Assembly (NCBI RefSeq): GCF_024648885.1
Contig: NZ_JANBBF010000012.1
Coordinates: 186,001 to 250,000 of the forward strand
Direction of reading: 5' to 3'
Length of the DNA: 64,000 nt
From: Prauserella salsuginis
GTDB lineage: Bacteria; Actinomycetota; Actinomycetes; Mycobacteriales; Pseudonocardiaceae
The number at the start of each line of letters is the position of its first letter. Position 1 is the stretch's first letter. The notes below the pieces were generated by a model, which was not told the origin of the DNA, did no database searches, and saw nothing but the letters and a program-made list of their open reading frames with translations. Shown here one piece after another: positions 58,013-64,000 of the stretch. A program made the translations under genes and the position numbers.

Positions 58013-58786
58013 TCACCCCTTCCGAGCGGCGACGACGTCGTGCATCGTCGCCGTGGCCACCCCGTGCTGCTCGAACCGTGCACGGATCGCCCTGGCGATG
58101 TCGGGGGAGTTCGGACGATCGCCGTGCAGGCAGATCGTGTCGGCGTCGACGTCGATCGCCTTGCCGTTGACCGAGGTGACACCGCCGCGCAGGACGTCGA
58201 TGGCCTGCTGGGCGCAGACGTCGGGGTCCTTGGCCTCCGGAACGGGTTCGATGATGATGTGCCCGTTGTCGTCGTAGTCGAGGTCGGCGAAGGCCTCGCG
58301 GGCGACCGGATAGCCGTCGGCGAGCACCCGCTGTGCGGTGGGCCCGGCCAGCAGGACGAGCAGGACGTTCGGATCGGCCTTCGTGACGGATTCGGCTACG
58401 GCGGCGGCCACGTCCGGGTCACGCAATGTCAGCCCGTAGAGCGCGCCGTGCGGTTTGACGTGGGCGATGGGGACGCCTGCTTCGTCGGCGAAGGCGCGCA
58501 GCGCACCGTACTGGTACAGGCAGGCGTCGGCGGCTTCGGCGGGGCTCAGCGCCATGGCACGGCGGCCGAATCCGGCGAGGTCGGGGAAGCCGGGGTGCGC
58601 ACCGAGTGCGACACCGTTGGACACGGCCAGTTCCACCGACCGGCGCATGGTCCCCGGATCGCCCGCGTGCCAGCCGCAGGCGACGTTGACGGAACTGACC
58701 TGGGGAAGCAGCGCGGCGTCGTTCCCGAGTTTCCATCGGCCGAAGCTCTCGCCTGCGTCCGCGTTGAGGTCGATGACTGTCTTCAT
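58013..58786 (-). CDS. pxpA: LamB/YcsF-family protein, 5-oxoprolinase subunit A
   Basis: 257 residues, ATG at 58786. Family motifs: TVIDLNADAGESFGRWKLGN, SSVNVACGWHAGDPGTMRRS, GALGAHPGFPDLAGFGRR-type loop (VALGAHPGFPDLAG), IAHVKPHGALYGL and ICLHGDRPNSPDIA with the metal-binding His/Asp residues. PxpA works with PxpB and PxpC to hydrolyse 5-oxoproline to glutamate with ATP. It is separated from pxpBC by the PucR regulator and points the other way, preceded by a 25-bp palindrome. Confidence 0.9.
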   Translation of the reverse strand: MKTVIDLNADAGESFGRWKLGNDAALLPQVSSVNVACGWHAGDPGTMRRSVELAVSNGVALGAHPGFPDLAGFGRRAMALSPAEAADACLYQYGALRAFADEAGVPIAHVKPHGALYGLTLRDPDVAAAVAESVTKADPNVLLVLLAGPTAQRVLADGYPVAREAFADLDYDDNGHIIIEPVPEAKDPDVCAQQAIDVLRGGVTSVNGKAIDVDADTICLHGDRPNSPDIARAIRARFEQHGVATATMHDVVAARKG

Positions 58787-58860
58787 GGCCTGTCCTTTCA
58801 CGTCGGGAACGGGCAACGGTAGGTCTTCCGCGGCCGGTGTGGGAATGGACGTTCTGGCCA

Positions 58861-58885
58861 ATTGTCGCTGTGCTGACGCGACAAT
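58861..58885 (-). promoter_or_regulatory. 25-bp palindrome upstream of pxpA
   Basis: ATTGTCGC and GCGACAAT, perfect 8-bp arms around 9 bp, 75 nt before the pxpA start. A good operator candidate for the PucR protein encoded just upstream, though no second perfect copy was seen in the divergent pucR-pxpB region. Confidence 0.55.
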
Positions 58886-58932
58886 GCGCGGCGCGAGATG
58901 CAGCACCGCCCGCGGAACCGGCAGGTCGCGGT

Positions 58933-58964
58933 GGCCTCCGCACCGGCGCGCAGGTGCGGAGGCC
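58933..58964 (-). terminator. Terminator after the PucR gene
   Basis: GGCCTCCGCACC with GGTGCGGAGGCC, perfect 12-bp stem, 8-nt loop, 58 nt past the PucR stop. It separates pucR from pxpA on the minus strand, so pxpA likely has its own promoter near the palindrome at 58861. Confidence 0.65.
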
Positions 58965-59021
58965 GCGCCACCGTTCCGGGCTACTTCGCCGCCGCCGACG
59001 CGGCACCGGACCGCCCCGCCG

Positions 59022-60464
59022 TTAGGCCACGAGCCGGATGGCCAGCCAGAGCTGTGCGCGGACGTCGGGTGAGTCCACATTGCAGTCCAGCAGTGCGGCC
59101 ACCTTGCTCATCCGGTGCCGGAGCGTGTGGCGGTGCACGCCGAGTTCCGCCGCAGCGGGGTCCCAGTGGCCGTGGTGGGCGAGCCAGCTGCGCAGCGACC
59201 GCACCAGCTCACCGCGCTGCCCGGCGTCGTGGTCGTACAACGGGCGCAGCATCGCCTCGGCGCGGGTGACGACGCCCTGGTCGGCGACGTCACGCAGCAG
59301 CCCGACGCCGAGGTCGTCGAACCGGACCACCGCCGTGCCGCGGCGGGTGGCCTCGGAGAGGGCCTGCCTGGCCTGCCGGTAGGCGGCCGACAGCCCGTCC
59401 AACCCGGTCGGCGGCGACACGCCCAGGTGGCGTGCGGACGGCAACTGTTGCGACGCGGACGCCACGGCGATCAGCTCGCCGTCGAGCTCCCCGGCCAGCA
59501 GGTCCGATGAGGCGCCGCCGTCCACCAGGGTGGGGGAGTGACCCGATCCGGCGAGAACCACGACGGGTTCGTCGGGCAGTCTCATGCCGAGCGGGTCGGC
59601 GAGTTCGTCGAAGGCTGTGCGGTGTCCCGTGAGCAGCAGTTTCAACGCCGTGGTGCGCAAGCGTGTATCGGCAGTGGTCCGGGTCCGGATCAAGGCGATG
59701 GACAGCAACGAGGCGGCTGCGTGCGTGATGTGGTGATCGGTCGAGCCGAAGGCGTGTTCCCTGCCGACGACGAGGAAACCCGCCAGCTTGTGCCCGCCGC
59801 CCAGGGAATGAGCGGCGACGTGTCCGCCGTCGGCGGACAACCCGATGCTGGAGGGCAGGCGTGCGGCGCGCAGCCGGTCGAGGTCGGGGGCCAGGGCCGG
59901 TACGTGCTCGGCGGCAGCCGCGGGCTCCGCCTGCGTCACGGTTCCGTCGGGGCTCAGGAGCACCGCCCAGCAGGCGAGTTCGGTGGCCAGCCTGCCGATC
60001 AGCCCGCCCAGGTCCTCGCCGTGCACGGCCGCGGTCGTGAGCGCGTTGCGAGCCGTCTCGAAGCGCCGCGCCTCGGCGCTGCGGGTGTCCGCCAGCGCTT
60101 GCGAGACGGCTTTGCTGATCTCGATGAACGGCGTGTGGTGCGGGACCTCGAGTACCGGCAGGTGGGCCGCCTCGGCCGCCGCCAGCAGCGGTTTCGGGAT
60201 CTCGTCGTGTCCGAGTTGGATCCCGAAACCGAGCCCCGACAGCCCGGCCGCGGCGAGCCTGCCGACGTAGGCGGCCTGCCCGTCCTCGGTCTCCGGCAGT
60301 GCGATGCCGGTGGTCAGCAGCAGTTCGCTGCCGGAAAGGAACTGGGTGGGATCGGTGAGCTCGCTGGCGTGGACCCACGAGATGGGGCGGTCCGCACCGG
60401 CGCTGCCCGCGCGGAGCGTGAGTCCGAGCTGTGGATTGCCGGTCAGATCGCTCGCCGTGGGCAT
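59022..60464 (-). CDS. PucR/CdaR-family transcriptional regulator
   Basis: 480 residues from the ATG at 60464; a longer frame to 60569 crosses the divergent promoter and is rejected. An N-terminal PucR ligand domain (about 1-130; WVHASELTDPTQFLSGSELLL), a central GGDEF-like CdaR domain (about 280-400), and a C-terminal HTH_30 (HWDPAAAELGVHRHTLRHRM, SKVAALLDCNVDSPDVRAQL). Regulators of this type respond to nitrogen-rich metabolites such as purine breakdown products. Located between pxpA and pxpB, it should control the oxoprolinase genes on both sides. Confidence 0.9.
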   Translation of the reverse strand: MPTASDLTGNPQLGLTLRAGSAGADRPISWVHASELTDPTQFLSGSELLLTTGIALPETEDGQAAYVGRLAAAGLSGLGFGIQLGHDEIPKPLLAAAEAAHLPVLEVPHHTPFIEISKAVSQALADTRSAEARRFETARNALTTAAVHGEDLGGLIGRLATELACWAVLLSPDGTVTQAEPAAAAEHVPALAPDLDRLRAARLPSSIGLSADGGHVAAHSLGGGHKLAGFLVVGREHAFGSTDHHITHAAASLLSIALIRTRTTADTRLRTTALKLLLTGHRTAFDELADPLGMRLPDEPVVVLAGSGHSPTLVDGGASSDLLAGELDGELIAVASASQQLPSARHLGVSPPTGLDGLSAAYRQARQALSEATRRGTAVVRFDDLGVGLLRDVADQGVVTRAEAMLRPLYDHDAGQRGELVRSLRSWLAHHGHWDPAAAELGVHRHTLRHRMSKVAALLDCNVDSPDVRAQLWLAIRLVA

Positions 60465-60585
60465 AACCAGCGGTTTTACACATTCTGTCCAGTGCCGCGG
60501 AGCCGTTTTGTACAGAGTTTCACTGGCGGAGGGTGGCCACAGCGGGCACAGTGTTGTGATCGCCGACACATTGGGAGGCGTGGTG
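60465..60585. promoter_or_regulatory. Divergent pucR-pxpB promoter region
   Basis: 121 bp between the two start codons, with several TGT/ACA-rich words (ACACATTCTGT, TTTTGTACAGA, GGCACAGTGTTGTGAT). No perfect palindrome longer than 6 bp arms was found. GGGAGG (60573-60578) is the pxpB ribosome-binding site. Confidence 0.45.
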
Positions 60586-61485
60586 ATGACCGAGAAGATC
60601 CAACTGCCACCTGCGCGTTACGAGTACGGCGGGGACGAGTTCGTGTTCGTCGAGCTGGACCAGGCGATGAGCCTGGAGGCGAACTTCGCGGGGATGGCCG
60701 TGACCAATGCGCTGCGCGAGGAGGCCATCGAAGGGGTTGTCGACATCTGCCCGTCGAATGCCTCCTACATGGTTCAGGTCGACCCCGACCGCCTCGACCC
60801 GCGTGAACTGGTCGAGGAGTTGCGCCGGCTCGAGTCCACGGTCGGGACGCTGCCCGACGACTACGTGCTCAAGACCCGGGTGGTGGACGTCCCGGTCCTG
60901 TTCAACGACCCGTGGACACACGAGACGCTCATGCGGTTCCGGGACCGGCACCAGGACCCCGAGGCCACCGACCTGGAATACGCGGCGCGCATCAACGGCT
61001 TCGACAGCGTGCAGGGCGTGATCGACGCGATGACGAGTGCGCCGTGGATCGTCACGATGCTGGGCTTCGTGCCGGGACTGCCGTTCTGCTACCAGCTGGT
61101 GCCGAGGGACCGGCAGATCCAGGTACCGAAATACGTCCGGCCCCGCACCGACACCCCGGAACGCACGTTCGGGTTCGGCGGTGCCTTCGCGGTGGTCTAC
61201 CCGGTGCGTGGCGCAGGCGGCTACCAGATGTTCGGCATGGCGCCCGCTCCGGTGTTCGACCTGTCGCAGAGCCTTCCCGACTTCGCCGACGACATCAGCT
61301 TCCCCAACGCGAACGACGTGCTGCGCTACCGGGCGATCGACATGGCCGAGTTCGAGTCGACCCGTTCCGAGGTGGAGAGCGGCACGTTCCGCTACCGCAT
61401 TCGTGAGGTCGAGTTCGAGCCGGCCTCGCTGCTGGCCGACCCCGACGCGGTCAATCGCGAGCTGCTGGAGGTGCTGTACCGATGA
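60586..61485 (+). CDS. pxpB: 5-oxoprolinase subunit B / carboxyltransferase domain 1 (KipI-like, AHS1)
   Basis: 299 residues, ATG at 60586 with GGGAGG 7 nt upstream. AHS1/KipI domain: LVELDQAM-like (FVFVELDQAMSLEANF), VDVPVLFNDPWTHETLMRF-type central strand, MLGFVPGLPFCYQLVPRDRQ, and GGYQMFGMAPAPVFDLSQ (the GW/GY-QL motif of the family). It is somewhat longer than KipI (about 240), with an extended N-terminus. Same fold as the first carboxyltransferase half of urea carboxylase. Overlaps pxpC by ATGA. Confidence 0.88.
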   Translation: MTEKIQLPPARYEYGGDEFVFVELDQAMSLEANFAGMAVTNALREEAIEGVVDICPSNASYMVQVDPDRLDPRELVEELRRLESTVGTLPDDYVLKTRVVDVPVLFNDPWTHETLMRFRDRHQDPEATDLEYAARINGFDSVQGVIDAMTSAPWIVTMLGFVPGLPFCYQLVPRDRQIQVPKYVRPRTDTPERTFGFGGAFAVVYPVRGAGGYQMFGMAPAPVFDLSQSLPDFADDISFPNANDVLRYRAIDMAEFESTRSEVESGTFRYRIREVEFEPASLLADPDAVNRELLEVLYR

Positions 61486-62459
61486 GCGAGCTGCTGGTGC
61501 GAGCCGGTGGCCTGTACACGACGGTGCAGGACACGGGCAGGTTCGGCTATTACCACATGGGGATGCCGCCCTCCGGTGCGATGGACGTCTACTCGGCGGT
61601 CGTGGCCAACATGCTGGTGGGCAACCCGGACGGTGCCGGGGTGCTGGAAGGCACCTACGTGGGCCCGACGCTGGAGTTCACCGACGACCGAGTGGTGGCC
61701 GTGACCGGTGCCGACGTGCCGGTGACGGTCAACGACGAACCCGTCGAGCCGTGGACGGCGATCCGCGTCGGACCCGGTGACGTGCTGGGGTTCGCCATGA
61801 TCCGCGCGGGCTGCCGGGTGTACGTCGCCGTGAGTGGAGGCATCGACGTGCCGGTGTACCTGGGTTCGCGGTCGACGTACACGTTGACCGGGATCGGCGG
61901 GCACCAGGGCCGCAAGCTCGTCGACGACGAGACGCTGCCGCTGGGATCGGGCGACGGATCGGCCCGCCCCGGCGCAGTCGTGCCCGAGGAGCTCCGTCCC
62001 GAGCTGGCCGGCCCGGCGGAACTGCGCACGGTCATCGGGCTGTGCTCCTACCGGTTGACCGAGGACGCGCTGGCCTCGTTCCTCGGTACCGACTGGAAGG
62101 TCACCAAGGACGCCGACCGTGTGGGGTACCGGTTGCGGGGCGGCAAGCTCGACTTCACCGACCGCGAGCAGCCGTTCGGTGCGGGCAGCGACCCGGCCAA
62201 CGTCGTCGACCTCGGCTACCCGGTCGGTTCGATCCAGGTACCGGGCGGTGACGAGCCGATCGTCCTGCTGAACGACGCCGTGACCGGCGGCGGCTACGCG
62301 ACCATCGGGACGGTGATCTCGGTCGACCGGGACCGCATCGCGCAGACGAAGACCGGTGACGTCGTGCGGTTCACCTCGGTGGACCTGGACACGGCGTTGG
62401 CGGCCAGGCGGGACCGCCGCGAGCGGATCGAACGGGTCCGCCGCGAGATCGCACGCTAG
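61482..62459 (+). CDS. pxpC: 5-oxoprolinase subunit C / carboxyltransferase domain 2 (KipA-like, AHS2)
   Basis: 325 residues. AHS2/KipA landmarks: LYTTVQDTGRFGYYHMGMPP, SGAMDVYSAVVANMLVGNPD, GVLEGTYVGPTLEF, RVYVAVSGGIDVPVYLGSRS, DADRVGYRLRGGKLDF and the late GGYATIGTVISVDRDRIAQT. It pairs with PxpB to form the catalytic heterodimer. The equivalent domain in urea carboxylase accepts carboxybiotin, and here the next two genes encode BCCP and biotin carboxylase. Confidence 0.9.
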   Translation: MSELLVRAGGLYTTVQDTGRFGYYHMGMPPSGAMDVYSAVVANMLVGNPDGAGVLEGTYVGPTLEFTDDRVVAVTGADVPVTVNDEPVEPWTAIRVGPGDVLGFAMIRAGCRVYVAVSGGIDVPVYLGSRSTYTLTGIGGHQGRKLVDDETLPLGSGDGSARPGAVVPEELRPELAGPAELRTVIGLCSYRLTEDALASFLGTDWKVTKDADRVGYRLRGGKLDFTDREQPFGAGSDPANVVDLGYPVGSIQVPGGDEPIVLLNDAVTGGGYATIGTVISVDRDRIAQTKTGDVVRFTSVDLDTALAARRDRRERIERVRREIAR

Positions 62460-62474
62460 GGAGGCAGCGACACG

Positions 62475-62714
62475 ATGACGACGATCAAAGCTCAGATGCC
62501 GGGCGTGTTCTACCGGCGGCCCGCGCCGGAGAAGCCCGTCTACGTCGACGACGGCGAGGAGATCAGCCAGGGACAGACCATCGCCCTGATCGAGGTGATG
62601 AAGACGTTCAACGAGGTCAAGGCCGACGAATCGGGAACGGTGGCCGAGTTCCTCGTGGAGGACGGCGACGAGGTCGACGTGGGGCAGGACATCGTGCGGC
62701 TGGGTGAGGTATGA
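62475..62714 (+). CDS. Biotin carboxyl carrier protein (short form)
   Basis: 79 residues, ATG at 62475 with GGGAGGCAG upstream. Single biotinyl domain with the biotinylation site EVMKTFNEV (Lys about residue 44) and the hammerhead strands KAQMPGVFYRRPAPEKPVYV and GTVAEFLVEDGDEVDVGQDI. It has no N-terminal extension, unlike AccB of fatty acid synthesis. It overlaps the biotin carboxylase gene by ATGA and follows pxpC by 15 nt. Confidence 0.92.
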   Translation: MTTIKAQMPGVFYRRPAPEKPVYVDDGEEISQGQTIALIEVMKTFNEVKADESGTVAEFLVEDGDEVDVGQDIVRLGEV

Positions 62715-64000
62715 GGCGCGTCCTGGTGGCCAACCGGGGTGAGATCGCGGTCCGCATCATCCGGGCCGCGCACGCCGCCGGTCTGGAGACCGTCGCCGTC
62801 TACTCCGATGCGGATGCGCAGGGCCGGTGGGTGCAGTTGGCCGACACCGCCGTGCACATCGGCAAATCGGCCGCGGCGAAGTCGTATCTGAACTCGGCGG
62901 CCCTCGTCGAGGCGGCCGTGTCGACCGGTGCGGACGCGGTGCACCCCGGGTACGGGTTCCTGTCCGAACGTCCGGGTGCCGCCAAGGAGTTCGCCGATGC
63001 AGGTCTGACGTTCGTCGGTCCCGCGGTGTCGACGATCGAGATGATGGGCGACAAGGCTGCGGCACGGGACGCGGCCAAGCGGGCCGGGGTGCCGGTCGTG
63101 CCCGGCAGCGGCGCGGTCGGCGATGTCGACGAGGCACTCGCGGCGGCCGAGGACGTCGGTTATCCGGTGCTCGTCAAGGCGGCAGCCGGTGGCGGAGGCC
63201 GGGGCATCCGGCCCGTGGCGTCTCGCGACGAGCTGGCCGAAGTGCTGCCCGCCGCGCAGGCCGAGGCCCGGTCGGCGTTCAGCGACGACACCGTCTACCT
63301 GGAACGGGCCATCGACGGCGCCCGCCACATCGAGGTCCAGATCCTCGCCGACCACGCGGGCAACGTGGTGCACACGTTCGAACGGGACTGTTCGGTGCAG
63401 CGGCGCCGGCAGAAGCTCATCGAGGAAGCCCCGGCCCCCGGGCTGGCGGCCGAAACGCGCGCGAGCATCAACGACGCGGCGGTGCGGCTGGCGCGCCAGG
63501 TCGGCTACGTGGGTGCGGGAACCGTCGAGTTCCTGCTGACACCGTCTGGGGAGTTCTTCTTCATCGAAATGAACACCCGCATCCAGGTGGAACATCCCAT
63601 CAGCGAGGCCATCACCGGGGTCGATCTGGTGAGCGAGCAGCTGCGCATCGCGGCGGGGGAGCCGGTCTCCTTCTCCCAGGACGAGGTGCAGATCCGCGGT
63701 GCCGCGGTGGAGCTGCGCATCAACGCCGAGGATCCGGACAACCGGTTCCAGCCCACGCCGGGCGATCTGTCCAGGTTGGATCTGCCGGGAGGGCCCGGGG
63801 TTCGGGTGGACACCGGTTTCGTCGCAGGCGATCGGATCAGCCCGTTCTACGACTCGATGATCGCCAAGCTGATCTGTTCCGGTCCCGACCGGGACACCGC
63901 CTTTGCGCGCGGCCGCCAGGCGCTCGCCGAACTGCGGGTGGAGGGTGTCCCCACGACGGTGTCGATGCACCGGCGGCTCCTCGACGAGCCCGACCTCCGT
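62711..64000 (+). CDS. Biotin carboxylase subunit, truncated by the window end
   Basis: 430 residues are visible from the ATG at 62711; the full protein should have about 450. RVLVANRGEIAVRIIRAAHA at the N-terminus, GYGFLSERPGAAKEFADAGL, the glycine-rich lid KAAAGGGGRGIRPV, the catalytic EMNTRIQVEHPISEAITGVD and ELRINAEDPDNRFQPTPGDL all match AccC-type carboxylases. It would carboxylate the BCCP encoded just before it with ATP and bicarbonate. No separate acetyl/propionyl carboxyltransferase adjoins; PxpBC is the only carboxyltransferase-like partner. Confidence 0.92.
   Translation, partial: MRRVLVANRGEIAVRIIRAAHAAGLETVAVYSDADAQGRWVQLADTAVHIGKSAAAKSYLNSAALVEAAVSTGADAVHPGYGFLSERPGAAKEFADAGLTFVGPAVSTIEMMGDKAAARDAAKRAGVPVVPGSGAVGDVDEALAAAEDVGYPVLVKAAAGGGGRGIRPVASRDELAEVLPAAQAEARSAFSDDTVYLERAIDGARHIEVQILADHAGNVVHTFERDCSVQRRRQKLIEEAPAPGLAAETRASINDAAVRLARQVGYVGAGTVEFLLTPSGEFFFIEMNTRIQVEHPISEAITGVDLVSEQLRIAAGEPVSFSQDEVQIRGAAVELRINAEDPDNRFQPTPGDLSRLDLPGGPGVRVDTGFVAGDRISPFYDSMIAKLICSGPDRDTAFARGRQALAELRVEGVPTTVSMHRRLLDEPDLR

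Follow-up and report, generated by a model that had tools for sequence, protein, structure and literature searches.

Why should a biotin carboxylase and its carrier protein be encoded in one operon with homologs of PxpB and PxpC, subunits of a 5-oxoprolinase that is understood to be biotin-independent? The question is raised by a locus at positions 58013-64000 of a 64,000-nucleotide stretch of the Prauserella salsuginis genome (the window, part of a 531-kb contig in a 5.64-Mb genome). It holds a LamB/YcsF family gene for a PxpA-like protein, a PucR-type regulator gene, and a tight operon of PxpB-like, PxpC-like, biotin carboxyl carrier protein (BCCP) and biotin carboxylase (BC) genes, whose products are called here PxpB2, PxpC2, BCCP2 and BC2. 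We propose that the five genes other than the regulator probably encode an enzyme of several subunits that depends on biotin and opens a cyclic amide. From the gene set, its conservation, homology and conserved residues we infer complex formation, biotin dependence, N-carboxylation, a lactam substrate and a role of PxpA.

The initial annotation had suggested PxpB and PxpC as the carboxyltransferase (CT) of such a system, and this suggestion gains weight from PxpB2, which is nearest to the CT of urea carboxylase by both profile and predicted fold and has kept the catalytic lysine. PxpB2 scored 112.5 bits against the urea carboxylase model TIGR02712 and 64 bits against the PxpB model TIGR00370, missing the PxpB cut-off of 145.55, which is passed by the canonical PxpB1 of the same genome (148.2) and by the PxpB of locus L154 (213.8). 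Its top profile match in the PDB was the urea carboxylase of K. lactis, and the first fold match of its AlphaFold2 (AF2) model (predicted local distance difference test, pLDDT, 89.5) was K. lactis urea amidolyase (KlUA) with a TMq of 0.81. In KlUA, the CT reaction most likely relies on K1605 as its essential general base, and the K1605A variant was strongly inhibited (PMC5770610). HMMER alignments place K1605 opposite Lys182 of PxpB2 in the segment QVPKYVRPRT.

The conservation of this lysine was followed in two samples. For the first, one genome per species was scanned with PxpB2 and the best 80 of at least 473 confirmed relatives were taken, with flanks of up to 10 kb on each side in which partner genes were sought by tblastn; chosen by their likeness to PxpB2, these 80 loci are no random sample. 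The second, unselected sample takes in every CT_C_D place, 40 in total, from 149 genomes of one phylum. Its stretches measure 19 kb at the loci of the lysine type (K-type) and about 16.6 kb at the remaining 32, so that about 8-9 kb were covered on each side, contig permitting. Lysine occupies the position of Lys182 in 80 of the 80 selected loci. In the unselected sample it is present in all seven split PxpB2 proteins and in six of seven fused urea-carboxylase-like proteins (the exception, L185, has arginine), whereas all 26 canonical PxpB proteins carry arginine.

The partner genes accompany PxpB2 with similar constancy. PxpC2 was found at 80, PxpA at 79, BCCP at 79 and BC at 69 of the 80 loci, and all five genes at 67, in many gene orders. 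The MK biotin motif is present in all 79 BCCPs (VMKTF in BCCP2, where biotinylation is predicted). The hosts are Pseudonocardiaceae, other actinobacteria, Rubrobacteraceae, Bacillales and one haloarchaeon, and the closest PxpB2 among the matches listed, 98% identical, is that of Prauserella alba. Plasmid records matching at E 1e-10 or better numbered 324, mostly from Rhizobium and Pantoea and not sorted into types; the eight plasmid regions that were opened, from Rhodococcus, Acidiphilium, Shinella, Diaphorobacter, Halomarina, Rubrobacter, Azospirillum and Thioclava, all hold the set, which is dispersed over about 10 kb on the plasmid of Rhodococcus jostii RHA1. The five-gene association is not a chance neighbourhood. 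In the unselected sample, a BCCP gene lies near seven of seven split K-type loci versus four of 26 Arg-type loci (Fisher p 7.7e-5, kinship ignored), a p-value that overstates the independent evidence because the four Arg-type loci with BCCP come from a single family (f27), and another family (f19) accounts for six of the seven K-type loci. For BC the counts are six of seven versus five of 26, the nearby 713-amino-acid (aa) BC protein at L173 being scored as BC and not as BCCP. The lack of BCCP and BC at the Arg-type loci L162 and L177 says little, since their contigs measure only 8.5 and 3.1 kb. Biotin supply genes also occur at loci with the set, BioY at L057, L063 and L065, with a count of six in the set of 80, and bioB in Acidiphilium.

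PxpC2 stands about as near to urea carboxylase as to the canonical E. coli YbgK. The first fold match of its AF2 model (pLDDT 84.8) was urea amidolyase (TMq 0.89, E 1.4e-27 vs 2.4e-27 for YbgK), and in printed alignments the motif PPSG and an insertion in the region of GAGSDPANVVD are common to PxpC2 and urea carboxylase and absent from YbgK and MSMEG_0435. On the PxpC equivalog model NF045499 PxpC2 reached 202.1 and the canonical PxpC1 of the same genome 204.6, both below the cut-off of 500. A tree of 75 PxpC rows has three sides: PxpC2 together with a second PxpB/PxpC pair of Bacillales (support 100/99), urea carboxylase together with a second pair from actinobacteria (100/99), and canonical PxpC (98/95). 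PxpC2 alone has a support of 92/92 with one artefact row inside: L094_2nd falls within the PxpC2 side because a shadow reading frame was kept in the tree, while the second matches of L099 were excluded. PxpC2 is its own family beside urea carboxylase and canonical PxpC. As the tree is unrooted, lysine may be the older state at the position of Lys182.

BC2 and BCCP2 have a different affinity and score far higher on acetyl-CoA-carboxylase models than on urea carboxylase. Against TIGR02712 the partial scores were 498.8 for BC2 (the fragment up to the window end), 236 for PxpC2, 112.5 for PxpB2 and 31.8 for BCCP2, and the single-chain cut-off of 1303.85 was not reached. BC2 aligns with E. coli AccC (1bnc) over residues 3-442 and retains MNTRIQVEHP, RINAEDP and the lysine of RRxQK, with arginine in place of histidine before QK; we take these three to be active-site segments of BC. 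Seven Biotin_carb_C places were found in the genome. The BC tree, with 32 rows, was calculated with 14 of the 69 BC2 proteins of the 80-locus set, five further BC2 proteins and that of the window, leaving out three other BCs of the window genome (L010, L012 and L013). BC2 was not monophyletic, and a one-clade constraint was rejected (p-AU 0.0003); constraints with the BC of urea carboxylase gave a p-AU of 0.002 for all BC2 and of 0.038 for the actinobacterial BC2, these groupings having been picked after the tree was viewed. Since BC2 is not one clade, BC was apparently recruited to the CT more than once, and such repeated joining is easiest understood if the CT needs a BC partner. The initial annotation had spoken of a disassembled urea-carboxylase-like system. 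This fits PxpB2 with its catalytic lysine, but in its strict form the idea finds no support in the PxpC and BC trees and does not fit BC and BCCP of the acetyl-CoA-carboxylase type. A better description is a CT of the urea-carboxylase type that is served by a BC and a BCCP of the acetyl-CoA-carboxylase type.

In the proposed reaction, BC2 would carboxylate biotin on BCCP2 using ATP and bicarbonate. PxpB2-PxpC2 would act as a urea-carboxylase-type CT by which CO2 passes from biotin to the nitrogen of the substrate, Lys182 of PxpB2 being the putative general base. LamB/YcsF is known from the 5-oxoprolinase literature as a lactam-hydrolysing family, and the PxpA-like protein would hydrolyse the N-carboxylated, activated lactam; the N-carboxy group would be lost as CO2 and the product would be an omega-amino acid. 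Lactam carboxylation in concert with PxpA is plausible from the gene context. In many relatives, an adjacent molybdenum hydroxylase may first convert a cyclic imine or N-heterocycle into the lactam. In a few, gamma-aminobutyrate (GABA) transaminase and succinate-semialdehyde dehydrogenase (SSADH) may remove the product, where GABA would imply 2-pyrrolidinone as substrate. If this holds, BCCP and BC genes that carry the name "acetyl-CoA carboxylase" in many genomes are parts of a different enzyme, the activation of cyclic amides becomes a catabolic role of biotin, and a conserved module can be assigned to a route leading from N-heterocycles via lactams to omega-amino acids. Going further, we tentatively suggest a widespread and undescribed biotin-dependent lactamase, a reading that may well prove wrong, in which CO2 on the lactam nitrogen would serve solely to activate the ring for hydrolysis and would then be released. 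In a bolder form of this suggestion, canonical PxpBC would be of the same descent and would borrow the BC-BCCP of an acyl-CoA carboxylase; were that true, the biotin-independent 5-oxoprolinase as now understood would need revision.

The recurrence of molybdenum hydroxylase, of aminotransferases and, at four loci, of GABA transaminase suggests the route from a lactam to an omega-amino acid. A CoxL-like molybdenum hydroxylase is present at 44 of the 80 loci and a full CoxM/CoxS/CoxL set at 12, while no Cox subunit was found in 32 control loci; in the unselected sample, CoxL is near five of seven split K-type loci versus none of the 26 canonical ones. Class-III aminotransferases occur at 22 of the 80 loci (controls 0/32), aldehyde dehydrogenases at nine (controls 2/32) and both together at seven (controls none), counts that include L133 and L143, which match by construction because they supplied the queries for these two enzymes. 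The GABA transaminase model was passed by four of eight neighbouring aminotransferases scanned (L143, L055, L122, L126). At L143 from a Candidatus Pseudogracilibacillus, PxpA is followed, past a divergent regulator, by a GABA transaminase (620 bits, cut-off 507) and a candidate SSADH (644, cut-off 646), and PxpB2 is preceded by CoxG-CoxS-CoxL-CoxM-XdhC-MocA. The conversion of 2-pyrrolidinone to GABA is perhaps the best single guess, and the substrate may differ between lineages.

Several observations weigh against a biotin-dependent enzyme for cyclic amides or against the pathway drawn for it. In four loci of family f27 (L154-L157), canonical PxpB of the Arg type stands beside BCCP and BC. These loci and the Arg-type pair in PDB entry 9yx5, discussed below, make the Lys/Arg contrast alone indecisive on biotin dependence, and they break the clean rule by which the Lys type would mean biotin and the Arg type no biotin; in some lineages, such as that of L154-L157, the canonical 5-oxoprolinase may have a link to biotin. 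The profile search with PxpC2 placed YbgK ahead of urea carboxylase (234 vs 221 bits). CoxL was not seen at 36 of the 80 loci, and the window locus has only the large subunit adjacent. The aminotransferases of L133, L152, L103 and L063, the other half of those scanned, fail the GABA transaminase model, and just one of four aldehyde dehydrogenases (L055) passes the SSADH model, those of L143 and L126 falling just short and that of L133 being unfit. No relative of gabT or gabD was found in the 19 kb searched at the window locus (L003). Finally, tblastn found no BC at 11 of the 80 loci, some of them at contig ends, as is L062, whose missing BC is thus uninformative. Seven Bacillales (L106, L109, L123, L129, L130, L136, L140) and Actinomadura L097 have BCCP without BC in a full flank; such BCCP-only loci could possibly use a BC encoded elsewhere.

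Among other explanations, a variant of 5-oxoprolinase that has gained or kept biotin dependence, converting 5-oxoproline to glutamate with CO2-biotin in place of direct phosphorylation, is unlikely. Such a variant would fit the PxpA of the window, which passes the PxpA subfamily model NF003814 (288.6 bits, cut-off 226), and it would fit the f27 loci. PxpABC is reported to act on 5-oxoproline (PMC13274462). However, the genome retains a separate canonical PxpB and PxpC and another PxpA. The genome scan revealed a second CT_C_D gene (PxpB1) on another contig, followed by PxpC1 and preceded by a gene that we read by eye as a Nramp-type transporter. A second PxpA, the higher-scoring one of the genome, lies on a third contig (L005:1498-2247), and no PxpA was found within the stretch fetched around the canonical PxpB/PxpC locus (L004:7820-11734). 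Since PxpB1 passes the PxpB model, while PxpB2 fails it and prefers urea carboxylase, the window set represents a paralogous system beside the canonical one. In addition, molybdenum hydroxylases and omega-aminotransferases recur as neighbours, and the formation of glutamate would require neither.

Even less likely is a system that carboxylates an open-chain amide, urea or a guanidine-like compound, in which the PxpA-like protein would take the role of an allophanate hydrolase. The characterised CT nearest to PxpB2 is indeed that of urea carboxylase, and amidase-family genes lie near eight of the 80 loci (for example L059). Yet LamB/YcsF is found at 79 of the 80 loci and at none of seven urea-carboxylase-like control loci, and PxpC2 stands outside the urea carboxylase clade. 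It is very improbable that the BCCP and BC genes, as a spare module of acetyl-CoA carboxylase, stand in the operon by chance and that PxpB2, PxpC2 and PxpA work without biotin, through ATP-dependent phosphorylation: although both genes are so named in databases and their sequences are acetyl-CoA-carboxylase-like, the gene overlaps are tight, the set persists in varying order in actinobacteria, Bacillales, Pseudomonadota and haloarchaea, the BC rows are not one clade, the CT lysine is conserved, and no acyl-CoA carboxyltransferase was among the neighbours scanned at the window locus. The initial annotation had considered that a separate carboxyltransferase gene might lie just beyond the window; the five following genes scanned encode CoxL, HpaB, flavin reductase, a TcuA-type protein and an asparaginase-family protein, none of them a carboxyltransferase, a PF01039 search of the genome or the relatives not having been made.

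The layout of the genes for the proposed biotin-dependent enzyme is given in Table 1.

Table 1. Features of the five-gene set and its regulator in the window.
Feature	Position	Strand	Basis
PxpA-like protein, LamB/YcsF family, 257 aa; proposed hydrolase opening the activated ring	58013..58786	-	PF03746 280.5 bits; NF003814; PDB matches 1v6t, 2dfa, 2xu2, 1xw8
PucR-type regulator, divergent from the pxpB2 operon	59022..60464	-	PF07905, PF13556
Divergent intergenic region, 121 bp; putative promoter/operator	60465..60585	.	Sequence only; function inferred
PxpB2, carboxyltransferase subdomains C and D, urea-carboxylase-like, 299 aa	60586..61485	+	CT_C_D 128.7 bits; TIGR02712; PDB profile and fold matches
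Lys182 codon AAA of PxpB2, aligned with K1605 of K. lactis urea amidolyase	61129..61131	+	HMMER alignments
PxpC2, carboxyltransferase subdomains A and B, 325 aa	61482..62459	+	CT_A_B 292.9 bits; profile and fold matches
BCCP2, biotin carboxyl carrier protein, 79 aa, motif IEVMKTFNEV	62475..62714	+	Biotin_lipoyl 70.4 bits; PRK07051 106.7 (cut-off 87)
Lys43 codon AAG of BCCP2, predicted biotinylation site	62601..62603	+	Sequence; MK motif conservation
BC2, biotin carboxylase, crosses the window end	62711..64000	+	Three BC domains; complete 447 aa in L003:5712-7055

Coordinates and Pfam confirm the close linkage of pxpB, pxpC, the 79-residue BCCP and BC noticed at first: PxpB2 and PxpC2 as well as BCCP2 and BC2 are joined by ATGA overlaps, and 15 nt separate PxpC2 from BCCP2. 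The Pfam domains of all six genes (LamB_YcsF, PucR and HTH_30, CT_C_D, CT_A_B, Biotin_lipoyl, three BC domains) exceed the gathering scores, and the BC2 gene extends 54 nt beyond the window end. The genes of PxpA and PucR had been called divergent, which is true relative to the pxpB operon but not relative to each other, as both lie on the minus strand. For the PucR gene an alternative upstream start is possible at an in-frame GTG at 60569. Close relatives (L074-L080, L099) likewise have a PucR gene between pxpA2 and pxpB2. The next gene after BC2, 101 bp on and on the same strand, encodes a CoxL-type molybdenum hydroxylase large subunit of 787 aa. Further downstream and on the opposite strand follow HpaB, flavin reductase, a TcuA-type FAD protein and an asparaginase-family protein; an AraC-type gene, identified by eye, lies among these. 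The HpaB-type monooxygenase and flavin reductase genes (L003:9727-11938) are convergent with the molybdenum hydroxylase gene; HpaB was dropped as a member of the system, being found at only three of the 80 loci, all from Prauserella (L074-L076).

Additional CT genes were seen at several loci. In ten Bacillales loci (L106, L107, L109, L118, L120, L141, L147, L148, L150, L151) a second Lys-type PxpB/PxpC pair lies downstream of the first set, with 36-44% (PxpB) and 41-46% (PxpC) identity to the pair of the window. An extra urea-carboxylase-like split pair with the motif PKYNPTR or PKYNPAR and a PucR gene precede the set directly at L085, L087, L096 and L097 from Saccharopolyspora, Prauserella flavalba and Actinomadura. 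CT-only fusions of CT_A_B and CT_C_D occur at L179, L180 and L182 (frame of 640-793 aa, Lys type, urea carboxylase clade). No BC or BCCP was found near these fusions in the fetched stretches; the BC-BCCP of another carboxylase may serve them.

Compared with urea carboxylase and urea amidolyase (KlUC 3va7, KlUA 5i8i, TIGR02712), PxpB2 and PxpC2 have the CT fold and the proposed general-base lysine in common. While urea carboxylase is one chain, the window system consists of five separate polypeptides with a BC and a BCCP of the acetyl-CoA-carboxylase type, and it further differs in its LamB/YcsF partner and in the position of PxpC2, both described above. Canonical PxpABC (E. coli YbgJK 5dud, M. 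smegmatis MSMEG_0435-0436 3mml) shares with the window system a PxpA homologue, the split PxpB/PxpC and the folds, but it carries arginine at the position of Lys182, and 22 of the 26 canonical loci in the unselected sample are without BCCP. Hydantoinases and the two-component ATP-dependent caprolactamase CapAB are not known to use biotin. They likewise catalyze an ATP-driven lactam hydrolysis and are reported not to be similar to PxpABC (PMC8453981).

Split genes for a urea-carboxylase-type CT were noted in 2011 as frequently adjacent and unstudied (PMC3199775), and in Lactiplantibacillus pentosus pxpB/pxpC and an extra BCCP/BC pair were given as separate findings (PMC12427679). Among the open-licence papers listed by our searches, we found no description of a biotin-dependent lactamase or of a function for the five-gene set, and the available excerpts of S. 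aureus and metformin papers contain nothing on biotin with PxpBC. A parallel to the proposed assembly, as far as its title and chain list tell, is PDB entry 9yx5 (released 2025-11-26), a long-chain acyl-CoA carboxylase of M. smegmatis that contains the BC-BCCP subunit AccA3 and has MSMEG_0435-MSMEG_0436 bound. No paper describing it was found in the open-licence literature. The excerpts of PMC11001197 describe AccA3 as common to other carboxylases; the paper was discarded as evidence for a partnership of MSMEG_0435 with AccA3, as MSMEG_0435 appears there only in a table of changed genes. MSMEG_0435 and MSMEG_0436 are homologues of PxpC and PxpB. Thus, 9yx5 shows that a PxpB/PxpC pair, in this case one of the Arg type, can be bound to a biotin carboxylase complex. 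Together with the Lys/Arg contrast, 9yx5 makes it directly testable whether PxpB/PxpC pairs are carboxyltransferases, which bears on the mechanism of PxpABC itself.

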